Below are positions 42,523 through 49,301 of a DNA stretch of 64,000 bases, in pieces. A program made the translations under genes and the position numbers. This DNA comes from Arthrobacter sp. NicSoilB8. Its GTDB lineage: Bacteria; Actinomycetota; Actinomycetes; Actinomycetales; Micrococcaceae. Positions within the stretch are counted from its first letter, which is position 1; every line of letters begins with the position of its first letter. The DNA lies in NCBI RefSeq assembly GCF_019977355.1, contig NZ_AP024655.1, positions 434,001 through 498,000 of the forward strand, given 5' to 3'. The notes beneath the pieces are model-generated. The model was not told the DNA's origin. It did no database searches and saw only the letters and a list, made by a program, of their open reading frames with translations.

Positions 42523-43305
42523 TCAGTCGATCGGCGTGACGTACGCGCCGGAAATCCCGCCGTCCACCAGGAAGGTGGATGCCGTGATGAAGGAGGCGTC
42601 GTCGCTGGCCAGGAACGTGACGGCGGCCGCGAGTTCCTCGGGCTCGGCAAAGCGTCCCAGCGGAACGTGGATCAGCCGGCGGGCGGCCTTTTCCGGGTCC
42701 TTCGCGAAGAGTTCCTTCAGCAGCGGGGTGTTCACAGGGCCGGGGCAGAGGGCATTGATCCGGATGCCCTGCCGGGCGAATTCGACGCCGAGTTCACGGC
42801 TCATGGAAAGCACCCCGCCTTTTGAGGCGCTGTAGGAGATCTGGGAGGTCGCCGCGCCCATGACCGCCACGAACGAGGCCGTGTTGATGATGGAGCCCTT
42901 GCCCTGTTCCTGCATGTAGGGGATGGCGTACTTGCAGCAGTAGTAAACGGATGTCAGGTTTACTTCCTGGACCTTGCGCCAGGCATCGATGCCGGTGTCG
43001 AGGATTGAGCCGTCGCTGGCGGGGGAGATCCCGGCGTTGTTGAACGCGATATCAACGCTGCCGTAGGTTTCTTTGGTCTGGGCGTAGAGGTTCCGGACGT
43101 CGTCTTCGCTCGTGACGTCGACCTTGACGAACAGGCCGCCGACCTCGGTGGCCGCGGCGAGGCCGGAGGTGGGTTCGATGTCGGCGATGACGACGTTGGC
43201 GCCTTCCGCCGCCATCCGGCGGGCGGTGGCCAGCCCGATGCCGCTGGCGCCACCAGTGATGACTGCGCTGCGTCCGGCGAGGCGGTTGGATACTACTGTC
43301 TGCAT
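42523..43305 (-). CDS. Short-chain dehydrogenase/reductase, last gene of the ethanolamine-type cluster
   Basis: This 260-residue SDR has GRSAVITGGASGIGLATARR (NAD(P)-binding), the IAFNNAGISPASDG strand, catalytic YSASKGGVLSMSRELGVEFA (Tyr-x3-Lys) and a C-terminal SFITASTFLVDGGISGAY. Alone it would be called a 3-oxoacyl-ACP reductase-like enzyme. Here it follows the aldehyde dehydrogenase, amidohydrolase, ligase and permease genes on the same strand. It could therefore act as the alcohol dehydrogenase that oxidises gamma-glutamylethanolamide to the aldehyde; this role is inferred from context only. Confidence 0.88.
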   Translation of the reverse strand: MQTVVSNRLAGRSAVITGGASGIGLATARRMAAEGANVVIADIEPTSGLAAATEVGGLFVKVDVTSEDDVRNLYAQTKETYGSVDIAFNNAGISPASDGSILDTGIDAWRKVQEVNLTSVYYCCKYAIPYMQEQGKGSIINTASFVAVMGAATSQISYSASKGGVLSMSRELGVEFARQGIRINALCPGPVNTPLLKELFAKDPEKAARRLIHVPLGRFAEPEELAAAVTFLASDDASFITASTFLVDGGISGAYVTPID

Positions 43306-43360
43306 GGGAACTCCTTAGTGCGGGGTATAGGTCGGGTCGATGTTGCGAGTCAGGGACAGT

Positions 43361-44734
43361 TCAGCCCAGAGACGGCGTGGAAATGAAGACGTTCTTGGTT
43401 TCGGTGAAGGAATCGAGGGCATCGGGTCCGAGCTCCCGGCCCAGTCCGGACTGCTTGAAACCGCCGAACGGGGTGGAGTACCGGACGGAGGAGTGGGAGT
43501 TCACGGACAGGTTGCCGGACTCGACGCCGCGCGCCACGCGCAGGGCGCGGTCCACGCTGGAGGTCCAGATGGAACCGGACAGTCCGTAGTCGGTGTCGTT
43601 CGCGATCCGGATAGCGTCCGCCTCGTCGGTGAAGGGCACCACGGTCACGACCGGGCCGAAAATTTCCTCGGTGAACGACCGCGCGTCCAGTCCGGGCGTC
43701 AGCACTGTCGGCGGGAACCAGAAGCCGGCTCCGGACGGGGCCAGGCCCTGGAAGGCAATCGGGGCGTTGTCCGGCACGAAACCGGCGACCGTCCGGCGTT
43801 GCTGGGCGGAGATCAGAGGACCCATGGTGGTTGCCTCATCCGCGGGATCACCGACGGTGATGGCCTTGACGGCGGGCTCAAGCAACTCCATGAAGCGGTC
43901 ATAGACGTTGTGCTGAACCAGGATGCGCGAGCGCGCACAACAGTCCTGGCCGGCGTTGTCGAATGCTCCACCGGGGGCGGCGGCGGCGGCCATCTCGAGG
44001 TCGGCGTCGTCGAAGACGATGTTGGCGCTCTTGCCGCCGAGTTCGAGGGTCACCCGCTTCACCTGTTCCGCGCAGCCGGCCATGATCTTCTTGCCGACGC
44101 CGGTCGAGCCGGTGAAGACCACTTTGCGGACGGCGGGATGGGTGACGAACCGCTCGCCCACCACCGAACCCTTGCCCGGGATCACCTGGAAGACGCCCTC
44201 CGGGATGCCGGCTTCACGGGCCAGTTCGGCCAGCCGCAGCGCGGTCAGGGGGGTCATCTCGGCAGGTTTGAGAACCACTGTGTTGCCGGCGGCCAGGGCG
44301 GGGGCAAAACCCCAGGCCGCGATCGGCATCGGGAAGTTCCACGGAACGATGACCCCCACAACGCCGAGCGGCTCGTGAAAGGTGATGTTGACGCCACCGG
44401 CGACCGGGATCTGCTTGCCGAAGTGGCGTTCCGGCGCGGCGGAGTAGTAAGCGAGGACGTCCCGGACGTTCCCGGCTTCCCAGCGGGCATTCCCGATCGT
44501 GTGGCCTGCGTTGCGGACTTCGAGCCGGGCCAGGTTTTCCAGATCCGCGTCCACGGCCGAGGCGAAGCGCCTCAGCAGCAGCGCGCGGTCTGCCGGGGCG
44601 ACGGCCCGCCAGGAATCAAATGCACCGGCCGCGCGGGCGATGGCATCATCGACCTCGGCCAGTCCGGCCAGCGCTACCGTCTCGATGACTTCCTCGGTGG
44701 AGGGGTTGATGACGTCGAAGGTTGTTGCTGTCAT
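43361..44734 (-). CDS. Aldehyde dehydrogenase (gamma-glutamyl-aminoaldehyde type)
   Basis: From ATG at 44734 the protein has 457 residues. NAD-dependent ALDH motifs are VGVIVPWNFPMPIAAWGFAP, VLKPAEMTPLTALRLAELAR, FTGSTGVGKKIMAGCAEQVK, the catalytic Glu in LELGGKSANIVF, and the catalytic Cys in NAGQDCCARSRILV. The C-terminus reads YSTPFGGFKQSGLGRELGPD. In the context of a glutamine-synthetase-like ligase and a gamma-glutamyl amidohydrolase it should oxidise a gamma-glutamylated aldehyde to the acid. Its start overlaps the end of the amidohydrolase gene by four bases. Confidence 0.92.
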   Translation of the reverse strand: MTATTFDVINPSTEEVIETVALAGLAEVDDAIARAAGAFDSWRAVAPADRALLLRRFASAVDADLENLARLEVRNAGHTIGNARWEAGNVRDVLAYYSAAPERHFGKQIPVAGGVNITFHEPLGVVGVIVPWNFPMPIAAWGFAPALAAGNTVVLKPAEMTPLTALRLAELAREAGIPEGVFQVIPGKGSVVGERFVTHPAVRKVVFTGSTGVGKKIMAGCAEQVKRVTLELGGKSANIVFDDADLEMAAAAAPGGAFDNAGQDCCARSRILVQHNVYDRFMELLEPAVKAITVGDPADEATTMGPLISAQQRRTVAGFVPDNAPIAFQGLAPSGAGFWFPPTVLTPGLDARSFTEEIFGPVVTVVPFTDEADAIRIANDTDYGLSGSIWTSSVDRALRVARGVESGNLSVNSHSSVRYSTPFGGFKQSGLGRELGPDALDSFTETKNVFISTPSLG

Positions 44735-45480
44735 ATCGTGGACATCTCTTTTCGGTTGGCACGGTAACTGCCCGCGGCCTGGACGAAGCCGCGGAACAGC
44801 CGCAGGTCTTCCGGGTTTTGTTCCGGGTGGAATTGCACGCCCAGCACCCAGCCGGGGGTGTCTTCGGCCTCCAGAGCCTGGACGGTTCCATCCTCGGAGG
44901 ACGCGGTGACGCGCAGCCCCGGCGGCACAGTGTCCATGGCCTGGTGGTGATAGCACGGCGCCCCGGCGGCGTCGCCGAGCAGTGACTGGATCAGGCTTCC
45001 CGGGACCGTGGTGAATGCGGCTTCGCCGAACACTCCCGGGGCCGGCTGGTAGTCGGCCGTGGGGTTGATGTCGGGCAGGTGCTGGGTCAGGCTGCCGTCA
45101 AAGGCCACGTTGAGGATCTGGGCCCCGCGGCAGATGGCAAACAACGGCAGACCGCGCTCCACCGCCGCCCGCGTCAGGATCGTATCGTGCTCATCCCGGA
45201 GCGGCTGCGAGGCGGTCCTGGGATGTGCGGCGGCACCGTAGCGGGCGGGATCCACGTCGGGTCCTCCCACCACGATGAGTCCGTCCATCAGGTCCAGCAC
45301 GGTTTCGTCCGTGCCCAGCGGCGGCAGCAGGATGGGAGTTCCGCCAGCGGCGACCACGGCCTCGACGTAGGTTCCCGGGACGATGGCGGCCTTGGCGTTC
45401 CAAACTCCCCAGGCCGCATCCTGGTAGTAGCTGGTCAGGGCGATCCGGGGGCGGTATGCCTTAGAGTCGTTCGAAGCCAC
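44731..45480 (-). CDS. Gamma-glutamyl amide hydrolase (PuuD-like class I amidotransferase)
   Basis: This 249-residue protein has the PuuD layout: RIALTSYYQDAAWG, GLIVVGGPDVDPARYGA, catalytic Cys in LPLFAICRGAQILNVAFDG, and the His-Glu of the triad in VLGVQFHPEQNPEDLRLF. HHQAMDTVPPGL is also typical. It cleaves the gamma-glutamyl bond of a modified amine to release glutamate. GTG at 45480 overlaps the end of the upstream ligase gene by 20 bases, so the two are tightly coupled. Confidence 0.92.
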   Translation of the reverse strand: MASNDSKAYRPRIALTSYYQDAAWGVWNAKAAIVPGTYVEAVVAAGGTPILLPPLGTDETVLDLMDGLIVVGGPDVDPARYGAAAHPRTASQPLRDEHDTILTRAAVERGLPLFAICRGAQILNVAFDGSLTQHLPDINPTADYQPAPGVFGEAAFTTVPGSLIQSLLGDAAGAPCYHHQAMDTVPPGLRVTASSEDGTVQALEAEDTPGWVLGVQFHPEQNPEDLRLFRGFVQAAGSYRANRKEMSTI

Positions 45481-46843
45481 GGATGCGCTCCCAGTCGGTG
45501 ACGGCGCCCTCGTAGGCGCGGAGTTCGATGCCGGCGGCGTGGACGTAGTGGTCCACGACGGAGTCGCCGAACGCCTTGCGTGCGATGCTGCTTTCCGCGA
45601 GAAGGTCCCGGGAATCGCGCAGGTTGGTCGGAAGCCGGTCGGCGTCGGAGGCGTAGGCGCTGCCCTGGATGGCGGGTCCCAGGGGCAGCCGGTTCTCCAG
45701 CCCGTGGATTACGGCGGCGATCAGCGCGGCCGCCGCGAGATACGGGTTGAGGTCCCCGCCGCCGACGCGCATTTCGGTGCGCAGGCCCCGTCCGTGGCCC
45801 ACCACCCGGAGGGCGCAGCTGCGGTTGTCCATGCCCCAGGCGATGGCGGTGGGCGCGAAGCTGCCTTCAACGAACCTCTTGTAGGAGTTGACGTTCGGGG
45901 CCAGGAAATAGGTGAGTTCCTTCAGGGCGTCCAGCTGTCCGGCCATGAAGTGCTCCATCACCGGGCTGAAGCCGTGCTCGCCGTCGCCGGGCAGCACGGG
46001 GTTGCCGTCCAGGTCGGTCAGGCTGAAGTGGATGTGGCAGGAGTTGCCCTCGCGCTGGTCGTACTTGGCCATGAAGCTGATGCTCTTGCCGTGCTGGTCC
46101 GCGATTTCCTTCGCGCCGCTCTTGTAGAACGTGTGCTTGTCGCATGCCTTGAGGGCTTCATCGAAGCGGAAGGTGATTTCCTGCTGGCCGAGGTTGCACT
46201 CGCCCTTGGAGGATTCGACCACCAGGCCGGCCGCCTCCATGTTGGTGCGGATCGACCGGATGACCGGTTCCAGGCGGGCCGTGGCGAGCAGCGAGTAGTC
46301 CACGTTGTACTGGGTCGAGGCATTCAGCCCGTGGTAGTTCTTCTGCCAGGCCTCACGGTAGGAGTCGTCGAACATCAAGAACTCGAGCTCGGTGCCCATG
46401 TGGGCGCGGTAGCCGAGTTTTTCGAGCCGTTCCACCTGGGCGCGCAGGATTTGGCGCGGGGACGCGACGACCGGCGACTTGTCTGCCCACATGATGTCGC
46501 AAAGAACCAGGGCCGTTCCCTGCTGCCACGGGACCCGGCGCAGGGTCGAGACATCGGGCAGCATCATCATGTCGCCGTAGCCGGTCTCCCAGGATGACAT
46601 GGCGTAGCCGTCGATGGTGTTCATCTCGACGTCGACGGCGAGGAGGTAGTTGCAGCCTTCCGCGCCGTGTTCCAGGACATCCTCGAGGAAAGAGCGGGCG
46701 CCGCAGCGCTTGCCCTGGAGCCTGCCGAGGGAGTCGGTGATGGCCACGATGACAGTGTCGATCGCTCCGGAGGCGACGTCTGCCCGCAGTTCATCGAGGG
46801 TGAGCTGGGTGTTCAGGGCGTGGGCTGTGGATGCTTCATTCAT
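45461..46843 (-). CDS. Glutamine synthetase-like gamma-glutamylamide ligase (GlnA4/PuuA-like)
   Basis: This 460-residue protein has the glutamine synthetase fold: LGYRAHMGTELEFLMFDDSY (metal-binding Glu), NLGQQEITFRFDEALKACDK, NSCHIHFSLTDLDGNPVLPG, GSFAPTAIAWGMDNRSCALR (ATP/phosphate loop), and MRVGGGDLNPYLAAAALIAA. Its neighbours are a gamma-glutamyl hydrolase, an aldehyde dehydrogenase and an ethanolamine-type permease. The best fit is gamma-glutamylethanolamide synthetase as described for Streptomyces GlnA4; gamma-glutamylputrescine synthetase is the alternative. It consumes ATP and glutamate. Confidence 0.9.
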   Translation of the reverse strand: MNEASTAHALNTQLTLDELRADVASGAIDTVIVAITDSLGRLQGKRCGARSFLEDVLEHGAEGCNYLLAVDVEMNTIDGYAMSSWETGYGDMMMLPDVSTLRRVPWQQGTALVLCDIMWADKSPVVASPRQILRAQVERLEKLGYRAHMGTELEFLMFDDSYREAWQKNYHGLNASTQYNVDYSLLATARLEPVIRSIRTNMEAAGLVVESSKGECNLGQQEITFRFDEALKACDKHTFYKSGAKEIADQHGKSISFMAKYDQREGNSCHIHFSLTDLDGNPVLPGDGEHGFSPVMEHFMAGQLDALKELTYFLAPNVNSYKRFVEGSFAPTAIAWGMDNRSCALRVVGHGRGLRTEMRVGGGDLNPYLAAAALIAAVIHGLENRLPLGPAIQGSAYASDADRLPTNLRDSRDLLAESSIARKAFGDSVVDHYVHAAGIELRAYEGAVTDWERIRGFERL

Positions 46844-46900
46844 GGTTGCTCCGCAATGTTGTTCTCTGCAAATGGGGTGGTGGGTGGTGGCCGGGGTCAG

Positions 46901-48352
46901 CTACTGCTTCAGTTCGGCCTCGGCCAGGGCCAGCCGGGCGAATTCCTCATCCGGGGACCCGGTGACGATGCGGTGCCGGCTGTAGAACCAGTAGTACGCA
47001 ATGGCGGCGGCGAAGATGGCCGCTGTGATGGATGCCGCGTAGACGTCCACCACAAAAGTGGCGACGACGGCGACCGCGGACAGGACGAGCGCGACGGAGG
47101 TGGTGGCGATGCCTCCAGGGGTGCGGTAGCCGCGCTCCAGTTCCGGCTCTTTGATCCGGAGCACAATGTGGGACAGGTTGAGCAGGACGTAGGAGACCGT
47201 GGCGCCGAAGACGGCGATGTTGATCAGCAGGGCGCCGTCCTGGGTGATGGCTGCCAGCAGGAAGCCGATCGTGCCCGGAACGATGAGGGCCCAGTAGGGT
47301 GTCCGGCGAGCCCCGGTGAGTGACAGCCATTTGGGCAGGTAGCCGGCGCGGGAGAGCGCGAAAAGCTGGCGTGAGTAGGCATAGATGATGGAGAAGAAGC
47401 TGGCCACCAGGCCGGCGAGGCCCGCGTAGTTGATGAAATCGGCAAGCAGCGTGTTTCCACCGTAGGCCAGCCGGATGGCGGCCGGAAGCGGGTTGTCTGA
47501 GGTGCTCATGGCCTGGGATCCGGCCGCTCCCGGCACGAGGACCAGCATCAGGCCCCCGAAGATGACCAGGATGAGGACTGCGACGATGATGCCTTTGGGC
47601 ATGTCCTTCTTGGGATCCGCGGATTCCTCCGCGGCCAGCGGGACGCCTTCGACGGCCAGGAAGAACCAGATGCCGTAGACCAGTGCCGCCAGGATTCCTC
47701 CGACGCCCATGGGCAGGAACGCGCTGGAACCGGCGGATCCGTCCGGGACGATGTCGAACAGTTTGGCCGGGTCGAACATCGGCACGAGGCCGACGACGGC
47801 GGCAATGAGCGCGACGACGGCAAAGGCGGTGATCGCAAACATGATCTTCAGCGCCTCACCCACGCCGCGGAGATGGATCCCGATGAAGATCATGTAGGTG
47901 ACCAGGTAGACCGGCCAGGAGTTGGTGAGCCCGAACAGGCCCAGTGCCTCGATGTAGCCGCCGATGAAGGTGGCGATGGCGGCGGGTGCGACGGCGTATT
48001 CGATCAGCACCGCTATGCCGGTGGCGAAGCCGCCCAACGGGCCGAGGGCCCGCCGCGCGAAAGCGTAACCTGCACCCGCCGTCGGAAGCGACGACGAGAG
48101 TTCGGCCAGGCCGAAGACCATGCAGGTGTACATGACGCCCATCAGGAGGAAAGCAATGAGCAGGCCGCCCCATCCTCCCTGGGCGAGACCAAGATTCCAT
48201 CCGGCGAAGTCGCCGGAAATGACGTAGGCGACACCCAGCCCCGCGAGGAGCACCCACCCGGCGGCGCCGCGCTTGAGCCGGCGGTGCTGAAGGTACTCCG
48301 TTTCACTGCCGTCTGCGTTTGTCGCAGCGGCGACATGATCTACTGATTTCAT
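46901..48352 (-). CDS. APC-family permease, ethanolamine permease (Eat)-like
   Basis: This 483-residue protein has 12 hydrophobic segments. Its opening GAAGWVLLAGLGVAYVISGD followed by FAGWNLGLAQGGWGGLLIAF is the one I know from ethanolamine permeases of the Eat type. Further signals are FGLAELSSSLPTAGAGYAFA and LAVEGVPLAAEESADPKKDM. It imports the substrate of the ligase encoded next to it. It is divergent from a FadR-type regulator, with a 229-base gap that holds operator-like repeats. Confidence 0.9.
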   Translation of the reverse strand: MKSVDHVAAATNADGSETEYLQHRRLKRGAAGWVLLAGLGVAYVISGDFAGWNLGLAQGGWGGLLIAFLLMGVMYTCMVFGLAELSSSLPTAGAGYAFARRALGPLGGFATGIAVLIEYAVAPAAIATFIGGYIEALGLFGLTNSWPVYLVTYMIFIGIHLRGVGEALKIMFAITAFAVVALIAAVVGLVPMFDPAKLFDIVPDGSAGSSAFLPMGVGGILAALVYGIWFFLAVEGVPLAAEESADPKKDMPKGIIVAVLILVIFGGLMLVLVPGAAGSQAMSTSDNPLPAAIRLAYGGNTLLADFINYAGLAGLVASFFSIIYAYSRQLFALSRAGYLPKWLSLTGARRTPYWALIVPGTIGFLLAAITQDGALLINIAVFGATVSYVLLNLSHIVLRIKEPELERGYRTPGGIATTSVALVLSAVAVVATFVVDVYAASITAAIFAAAIAYYWFYSRHRIVTGSPDEEFARLALAEAELKQ

Positions 48353-48393
48353 GCGATTCCCTTGATAAGAGGAGTGTCGCCCAGATTCCTAAA

Positions 48394-48409
48394 GGACTGT
48401 TTTCAGTCC
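48394..48409. promoter_or_regulatory. Palindrome near the permease start
   Basis: GGACTG-TTTT-CAGTCC is a perfect 6-bp inverted repeat with a 4-base spacer, 42 bases before the permease start codon. It is a good candidate operator for the divergent FadR-type regulator. Confidence 0.55.
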
Positions 48410-48500
48410 AAGGGCACGCCTCCCAGTGTGGTGGCGCAACTCACATTCGTCAAGGACTTCGGGTGAGAACATAGGAAATATCGCTCGGACTTCGGTCAAT

Positions 48501-48521
48501 TGGTCTTTTAGCTGGTCTTTT
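48501..48521. promoter_or_regulatory. Direct repeat upstream of the FadR-type regulator gene
   Basis: TGGTCTTTT is repeated exactly at 48501-48509 and 48513-48521, a 12-base period that places both on one face of the helix. It lies about 60 bases before the regulator's start, in an A/T-rich stretch with TATATATAGG further downstream that may include the promoter. Confidence 0.45.
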
Positions 48522-48581
48522 CCGGTTCCCTAAATGTATGCTCGCGGTATATATAGGGTCGCCTAGTTTTGGGAGCTGGCC

Positions 48582-49301
48582 TTGGCCGATTTCTTGTTGC
48601 AGCAGCCGTACTCAATGTTGCGCCCGGTGCGGGGCGGAAATGCTTTCGAAGAGACCATCGAGCACATCCTCCAGACGATCAAGCTCGGCATCTTTGCCCC
48701 TGCTGACAAGCTGCCGCCGGAACGCGAACTCGCCGAACGCCTGGGTGTTTCCCGGGCGACCCTTCGCGAGGCGCTGGGCGAATTGCAGGCTGCCGGATAT
48801 CTGGACGTCAGGCGCGGCCGCTACGGCGGCACGTATGTCTCCGAAAACCCGGTGCGGTCAGAACCGCGCGGAATCCGCCCACTGGATCCAGCCGAGGTGC
48901 AAGACGTGCTCCTGTTCCGCGGGGTCATTGAACCGGCGGCGAGCGCCCTGGCGGCCAGTTCCAATCTGTCTGCTGCCGCCCGGAGCCACCTGAGGAACTG
49001 CCTGTCGGAGGTGTCCAACGCCACGGAGGCCTCGTACAGGCCCCGCGACGCCCGCTTTCACATCGCGATCGCCGAGCTCACCGGCTCGCCCAGCCTTGTG
49101 GCGGCCGTGGCGGAAACCAGATCCAGGGTCAACGAACTCCTGGACAGGATCCCGTTCCTGGGGACCAACCTGGAGCATTCCAACGCGCAGCACGCGCAAA
49201 TGGCGGACGCCATTCTGTCCGGCGACGCGGCGGCGGCGGAGCGCGCCACCATTGAACACCTGGAAGGGACCGCGGCCCTGCTGCGCGGCTTCCTGTCCTG
49301 A
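48582..49301 (+). CDS. FadR/GntR-family transcriptional regulator of the ethanolamine-type cluster
   Basis: This 239-residue regulator has the GntR winged helix (FEETIEHILQTIKLGIFAPA then RELAERLGVSRATLREALGE) and the FCD/FadR-type C-terminal helical domain (VQDVLLFRGVIEPAASALAA, HIAIAELTGSPSLVAAVAET, and HAQMADAILSGDAAAAERAT). The His residues in this domain usually bind a metal that holds the ligand. It is divergent from the permease and should control it. TTG at 48582 is the proposed start; ATG at 48615 is the alternative. Confidence 0.92.
   Translation: MADFLLQQPYSMLRPVRGGNAFEETIEHILQTIKLGIFAPADKLPPERELAERLGVSRATLREALGELQAAGYLDVRRGRYGGTYVSENPVRSEPRGIRPLDPAEVQDVLLFRGVIEPAASALAASSNLSAAARSHLRNCLSEVSNATEASYRPRDARFHIAIAELTGSPSLVAAVAETRSRVNELLDRIPFLGTNLEHSNAQHAQMADAILSGDAAAAERATIEHLEGTAALLRGFLS

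Follow-up and report, generated by a model that had tools for sequence, protein, structure and literature searches.

A GlnA4-type ethanolamine gene cluster predicted in Arthrobacter sp. NicSoilB8 and its distribution in the genus

Introduction

Ethanolamine is a common piece of the fat of cell membranes. We describe a set of six genes at positions 42523–49301 of a 64 000-nucleotide stretch of the genome of the soil bacterium Arthrobacter sp. NicSoilB8 (RefSeq accession number NZ_AP024655.1, positions 434 001–498 000; hereafter the window), which is very likely an ethanolamine operon of the GlnA4 type found in actinobacteria. The closest described system is the glnA4 cluster of Streptomyces coelicolor. 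GlnA4 forms gamma-glutamylethanolamide in vitro, with a Km for ethanolamine of 0.47 mM (Krysenko 2019, PMC6529630), as a preliminary description of the Arthrobacter locus had said of the enzyme. According to the same paper, a glnA4 mutant failed to grow in liquid medium with ethanolamine and still grew on putrescine, and the enzyme is termed ethanolamine-specific. The cluster legend names a short-chain dehydrogenase (SDR), an aldehyde dehydrogenase (ALDH), glnA4, a regulator, a glutamine amidotransferase and a presumed ethanolamine transporter. Repression of glnA4 by the divergently oriented epuRI is also reported. In the discussion of that paper SCO1611, SCO1612 and SCO1615 are proposed for the later steps, in the order given in the preliminary description. 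In gel shifts, EpuRI bound eight promoter fragments, including that of glnA4 and its own (PMC8998196).

The gene arrangement around glnA4 was reported in 2009 to be the same in Mycobacterium tuberculosis and K. radiotolerans, i.e. in distant actinobacteria, and a table in that paper lists a match of just 31 % to GlnA4 in Arthrobacter sp. FB24 (PMC2667176). Arthrobacter is named among the ethanolamine-using genera (PMC6529630; 2022 review PMC9397018). The proteobacterial route of Chromohalobacter salexigens and Phaeobacter MED193 comprises a ligase, a gamma-glutamylethanolamide dehydrogenase, an aldehyde dehydrogenase and an amidohydrolase (PMC10132767), the same steps as those predicted for the window, but is accompanied by a TRAP transporter and an RpiR regulator where the window has an Eat permease and a FadR-type regulator. 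The Puu pathway of Escherichia coli shares the logic of ligase, ALDH and hydrolase, but has the oxidase PuuB in the place of the SDR, is associated with PuuP and PuuR, and includes a PuuA that falls far outside the clade of the window ligase. Among the open-licence literature, examined by title or start of abstract, no paper about this Arthrobacter cluster was found; one Arthrobacter paper (PMC5023230) concerns methylamine.

Comparison with the Streptomyces glnA4 cluster

Streptomyces glnA4 was located by an exact match to one published glnA4 primer, which was found in 11 of the 295 genomes of the Streptomyces genus that includes L037 (L and G numbers are our handles for loci and genomes). These 11 genomes yielded ten loci, and in all but one (L123) the second glnA4 primer matched with at most two mismatches and both EpuRI primers with at most four. 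The ligase, ALDH, SDR, FadR-type regulator and hydrolase were found together in each of the six Streptomyces regions fetched, with identities to the window proteins of 60–61 % for the ligase, 67–70 % for the ALDH, 72–75 % for the SDR, 49–50 % for the regulator and 42–44 % for the hydrolase. Compared via these primer-identified relatives of S. coelicolor, each of the SCO1610–SCO1615/EpuRI genes for the ligase, SDR, ALDH, divergent FadR-type repressor and amidotransferase has a single equivalent in the window, and we propose SCO1611 as the counterpart of the SDR, SCO1612 of the ALDH, SCO1613 of the ligase, SCO1614 (EpuRI) of the regulator and SCO1615 of the hydrolase. A permease also adjoins the glnA4 cluster in other Streptomyces, as it does in the window. 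The arrangement differs in two respects. The hydrolase gene lies inside the operon, between those for the ligase and the ALDH, in the window but beyond the regulator in Streptomyces, and Eat heads the operon and faces the regulator in the window, a position held by the ligase in Streptomyces.

Neighbouring genes were then counted in 80 named loci with the ligase, anywhere in the stretch, several of which end at contig ends. Relatives of the ALDH and of the SDR were each present in 73, those of the hydrolase and of the FadR-type regulator in 66 each, and those of Eat in 28; the association of these genes is therefore not due to chance. The SDR travels with the cluster, as the preliminary description had supposed, and the comparison of neighbours that it suggested links ALDH, SDR, hydrolase and regulator to the ligase in most of the loci. 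In the Mycobacteriaceae loci the ligase is 55–64 % identical to that of the window, and in M. tuberculosis the four enzyme genes are presumably adjacent as Rv2857c–Rv2860c (GlnA4). L045 and L022 come from metagenome bins labelled Chlamydiae and Acidobacteria, and their ligases nest among actinobacterial rows; these are probably misbinned contigs.

The pathway outlined in the preliminary description (Eat, a GlnA4-type ligase, SDR, ALDH, hydrolase and a FadR-type repressor) thus has good support from its orthology with the cluster in Streptomyces. What was offered there as novel, namely the SDR, Eat and the FadR-type regulator as an extension of the known pathway, is not, since the genes listed in PMC6529630 already include a dehydrogenase, a permease and a divergent regulator and the two sets are therefore the same. 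Because pathway and gene set had been published in Streptomyces, the finding as first given matters little, and the window cluster is a known pathway in a new host and largely ordinary. As far as the literature searched is concerned, the new elements are the occurrence of the ligase in 52 of the 206 congener genomes together with EutB in none, a candidate operator, a second ligase lineage and the position of Eat beside a lyase-like protein.

Affiliation of the ligase

A tree of 107 ligase rows, built by a quick method and rooted at the midpoint with long outgroup branches, placed the window ligase inside the Streptomyces GlnA4 clade, with Arthrobacter proteins as its nearest named relatives. 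The PDB chains 5dm3, which we take to be the Chromohalobacter enzyme, and 11zs were next out, and the fork parting them from the GlnA4 clade had a support of 91. They were followed by a 42 % identical Streptomyces paralogue and then by PuuA and the glutamine synthetases (GS). The phylogeny that the preliminary description had suggested hence groups the ligase with GlnA4, outside E. coli PuuA and the GS. The best PDB matches to the ligase were the same two chains (11zs, 429.9 bits; 5dm3, 410.6 bits), and the next chain scored 157.4 bits. The paralogue, found at L100 and L101, is a second GS-like ligase that is intermediate in the tree between PuuA and the GlnA4/5dm3 group.

Sixteen residue numbers published for SCO1613 were tested on seven Streptomyces ligases. 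Those of loci L130 and L131 fit 14 of them without an offset, and that of L135 fits the same number when offset by 3. The ligases of L132–L134 fit 10 of the 16 at one offset and that of L149 fewer than 10, lower values that arise because the script allowed no gaps. The published D69 and D81 fail in both L130 and L131. The window ligase retains those residues for metal, glutamate and ATP that were tested (E152, E154, E215, E222, G266, H270, H272, R323, R346, E357 and R359), and the published V189 is replaced by a leucine (residue L185). It is very probably a gamma-glutamylethanolamide synthetase of the GlnA4 type, as predicted from its position in the tree and its residues. The ligase match is in two pieces at L167 (G374) and at L078 (Arthrobacter sp. 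ATA002), where the gene may be broken or misassembled.

Predicted pathway

In the proposed pathway, Eat would import ethanolamine and the ligase would couple it to the gamma-carboxyl group of glutamate, using ATP. The SDR is proposed to oxidize the alcohol of gamma-glutamylethanolamide to the aldehyde with NAD, the ALDH to convert the aldehyde to gamma-glutamylglycine, and the hydrolase to split this into glutamate and glycine. The divergent FadR-type regulator would repress the operon via a palindrome that closely follows the permease promoter, and repression may be relieved by ethanolamine or by a gamma-glutamyl intermediate. For the window, the enzyme activities, among them the three steps after the ligase, are all inferred, as are the sequence of the operator and the identity of the inducer.

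Likely catalytic residues were chosen in these three enzymes from knowledge of their families. In the SDR, N90, S144, Y158, K162 and D42 were each kept in 102 of 102 relatives. An Asp at the position of D42 points to NAD in this family, and thereby to the oxidation direction. C265 and E231 of the ALDH were kept in 105 of 105 relatives, and C265 is presumably the catalytic residue, given its GQxC motif. In the hydrolase, C117 was found in all 98 relatives and H218 and E220 in 97 of 98 each.

Distribution in the genus and the Eat permease

The ligase was found in 52 of the 206 genomes of the genus, at an identity of at least 76 % in 41 and of 53–54 % in the remaining 11. This patchy distribution is in line with the 31 % match published for strain FB24. 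A Eut route, through ethanolamine ammonia-lyase, was considered and set aside for the host, as EutB was not found in its genome, nor was it found in any of the 206 genomes, although the control was detected in E. coli. By these counts, an ethanolamine route free of ammonia-lyase would be present in one in four of the genomes sampled from this Arthrobacter-like genus, none of which yielded EutB.

The survey of Eat scored the best seven candidates per genome, and its absences are less sure than its presences. Of the 41 genomes carrying the near lineage of the ligase, 38 had a close Eat (at least 84 % identity), and no Eat reached the threshold in the 11 with the 54 % lineage. More distant Eat proteins (57–72 %) are held by eight of the 154 genomes without the ligase. 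When nine permeases from the clusters were scanned, four passed the cut-off of the ethanolamine permease model TIGR00908. Among the permeases that passed are those beside glnA4 in Streptomyces L018 and L082 (461.5 and 483.4 bits), which are 59 % identical to Eat of the window. These scores run counter to the statement in the mBio paper (PMC6529630) that the Streptomyces permease is without similarity to Eat, and would correct it, although the permeases meant there may be other proteins.

In five of the ligase-free genomes (G020, G379, G385, G400 and G508), an Eat of 70–72 % identity and a protein of the class-III aminotransferase type lie no more than 1.5 kb apart; the latter is at least 92 % identical in all five to the G020 copy. 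The best PDB matches to the G020 copy were 6tor, an ethanolamine-phosphate phospho-lyase (354.4 bits), and 5g4i, a phospholyase (341.7 bits). The position of Eat beside a protein resembling an ethanolamine-phosphate lyase is independent support for the view that this permease family carries ethanolamine. Open reading frames (ORFs) in the flanks were chosen by a simple rule of length and codon position. The regions from G508, G020 and G379 (L174, L175 and L176, respectively) all contained the lyase-like protein family and a UTRA regulator, and a protein of the APH kinase family was present in both of the regions where such an ORF was given. Eat and the lyase-like protein possibly form an alternative ethanolamine route in the genus. 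The split is not clean, as a further 20 genomes contain relatives of the lyase at 49–56 % identity and eight of these also have the ligase. In L177, another Eat region without the ligase, an acyl-CoA dehydrogenase is present and no match to the lyase was found nearby.

Apparently exchanged front block in the 54 % lineage

Seven of the 11 genomes in the 54 % lineage were examined (L161–L166 and L143). In these loci the ligase is 52–54 % and the regulator 42–47 % identical to that of the window, whereas the hydrolase (64–68 %), the ALDH (81–83 %) and the SDR (82–84 %) are closer. L143 was the sole locus included in trees, in which its ligase and regulator grouped with Microbacterium (100/99 and 99/98, respectively). 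The hydrolase and ALDH of L143 fell among Arthrobacter rows, and its SDR had no resolved placement. In three loci of this lineage, the nearest ORF upstream of the regulator was scanned and matched TIGR00907 with 420.9–435.6 bits, under the cut-off of 598.3. This TIGR00907-like permease takes the place of Eat there. The seven loci look as if they were mosaic, with the half comprising permease, regulator and ligase exchanged.

Candidate operator of the regulator

An alignment of the congeners showed a common promoter-like block between the regulator and the permease, with a palindrome after it. A scan of positions 48340–48640 with the sigma-70 consensus detected no promoter. The palindrome, GGACTGTTTTCAGTCC, is a candidate operator of the FadR-type regulator. 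A 22-base form from the window matched nine of the 19 other congener loci with at most three mismatches and nine with five to eight; in the remaining locus, L167, the site is visible in the alignment and was missed by the script. In the whole host genome an 18-base form had one exact match and two matches with three mismatches.

A symmetric matrix made from seven sites was applied to 66 other loci, with 300 column-shuffled matrices as a control. The best position of the whole locus fell in the promoter region of the ligase, regulator or permease in 25 of the 66 loci, and the shuffled matrices gave a mean of 7 and a maximum of 24, none reaching 25. In the group of Mycobacterium, Gordonia and N. 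iriomotensis there were promoter sites in 14 of 18 loci, a number reached by one of the 300 shuffles, and among Nocardioides, Microbacterium and others of the order in four of 10 (11 shuffles). As the sequences are related, these shuffle counts are not probabilities. The mycobacterial group contributes most of the signal.

In its main text, the 2019 paper (PMC6529630) does not mention an electrophoretic mobility shift assay, an operator, a palindrome or DNA-binding, and a site may have been published elsewhere; the accessible part of PMC8998196 mentions no binding motif or palindrome for EpuRI. The candidate thus offers a concrete operator sequence for a repressor previously known on whole promoter fragments. 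The eight promoters bound by EpuRI support binding at glnA4 but show a wider regulon in Streptomyces than the single exact match in the window's genome suggests.

Alternative substrates and points against the assignment

The preliminary description held putrescine to be the main alternative substrate, and the hydrolase and ALDH are indeed of families common to PuuD and PuuC. The ligase also matches the PuuA equivalog model, though weakly, at 194.6 bits against a cut-off of 650. Breakdown of putrescine via gamma-glutamylated intermediates is nevertheless very unlikely, because the ligase groups with GlnA4, with PuuA far outside that clade, the permease passes the Eat model, and the cluster has an SDR, an oxidizer of alcohols, and no PuuB-type oxidase (PuuB was looked for in the cluster and not in the rest of the genome). 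The GlnA4 counterpart, moreover, is called ethanolamine-specific and its mutant grew on putrescine (PMC6529630). That the ligase is a plain GS in a nitrogen cluster is more improbable still. It has the Pfam GS catalytic domain, but scores far under the cut-offs of GlnA (223.5 of 429.15 bits) and GS III (234.1 of 469.6 bits) and has a Phe (F329) in place of the flap Glu of the GS ammonium site (E327 in true GS). Four further genes of the GS family are present elsewhere in this genome.

A primary amino alcohol other than ethanolamine, for example 3-aminopropanol or alaninol (2-aminopropanol), is an unlikely substrate, if somewhat less so than putrescine. The chemistry of the SDR and ALDH would suit any such compound, and the isopropylamine/alaninol (Ipu) route of Pseudomonas works by the same SDR and ALDH-type chemistry. 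Against this stand the linkage to an ethanolamine-permease equivalog, the 70–72 % identical permease adjoining an ethanolamine-phosphate-lyase-like protein in five congeners, and orthology to an enzyme described as ethanolamine-specific (PMC6529630). Several observations weigh against an ethanolamine operon. The sequence is also compatible with other amino alcohols, the hydrolase is just 42–44 % identical to its Streptomyces counterpart, and the SDR, ALDH and hydrolase steps are predicted only, even in Streptomyces (PMC6529630). Relatives of Eat occur in just 28 of the 80 ligase loci, and five of the nine permeases scanned fall under the TIGR00908 cut-off (335.7–380.1 bits) and are 38–41 % identical to that of the window. 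Promoter sites found with the operator matrix are weak in Solirubrobacterales (four of 16 loci; 19 of 300 shuffles) and Streptomyces (three of 10; 29 of 300), and no top-ranked promoter site was found in the seven loci of the 54 % lineage or in five of Saccharothrix.

Taken together, the ethanolamine operon, its operator and its variants in the genus allow a tentative proposal that we consider a little short of probable. Ethanolamine use in actinobacteria would be a plug-in with interchangeable front ends, in which, across a range from Arthrobacter to Mycobacterium and Streptomyces, an EpuRI-like regulator reads a shared palindrome (about TTGGTCTG-N4-CAGACCAA, with variants) at the promoter of the operon. 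Within one genus, the front block of permease, regulator and ligase would be exchangeable against a constant set of hydrolase, ALDH and SDR, and this Eat would alternatively be coupled to a kinase and an ethanolamine-phosphate lyase.

Gene layout and flanking genes

All six ORFs were confirmed at the positions, in the order and on the strands originally described, and Pfam and NCBIfam scans agree with all six gene names (Table 1). The preliminary description was also right that the genes lie together with overlaps of 20 bases between ligase and hydrolase (45461–45480) and of 4 bases between hydrolase and ALDH (44731–44734).

Table 1. Positions in the window of the six genes and of the putative regulatory elements
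Feature	Position	Strand	Basis
SDR	42523–43305	−	NF004713, 491.7 bits
ALDH	43361–44734	−	ATG at 44734; PF00171, 533.9 bits
PuuD-like class-I amidotransferase-type (peptidase C26) hydrolase	44731–45480	−	PF07722, 185.8 bits
GlnA4-type GS-like ligase (predicted)	45461–46843	−	Pfam GS catalytic domain PF00120
Eat-type ethanolamine permease	46901–48352	−	TIGR00908, 511.4 bits (cut-off 381.75)
Candidate operator, 16-base palindrome	48394–48409	no strand	Congener alignment
Promoter-like elements: TTGACG (48448–48453), 17-base spacer, CACACT (48425–48430)	48425–48453	−	By eye, from sequence and congener alignment
Divergent FadR-type (GntR/FCD) regulator	48582–49301	+	PF00392 and PF07729; putative TTG start

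An acyl-CoA dehydrogenase and a CoA ligase flank the cluster. Both are present only in the two nearest (L151 and L167) of 20 congener regions fetched, with the CoA ligase but not the acyl-CoA dehydrogenase in L136, and they were therefore not counted in the gene set. Elsewhere in the host genome (5.17 Mb in two contigs), at C1:104000–117000 (L144), a gene for a GS of type III adjoins those for an ammonium transporter and for glutamine-amidotransferase-like and glutamate-synthase-like proteins, which resembles a methylamine-type set.

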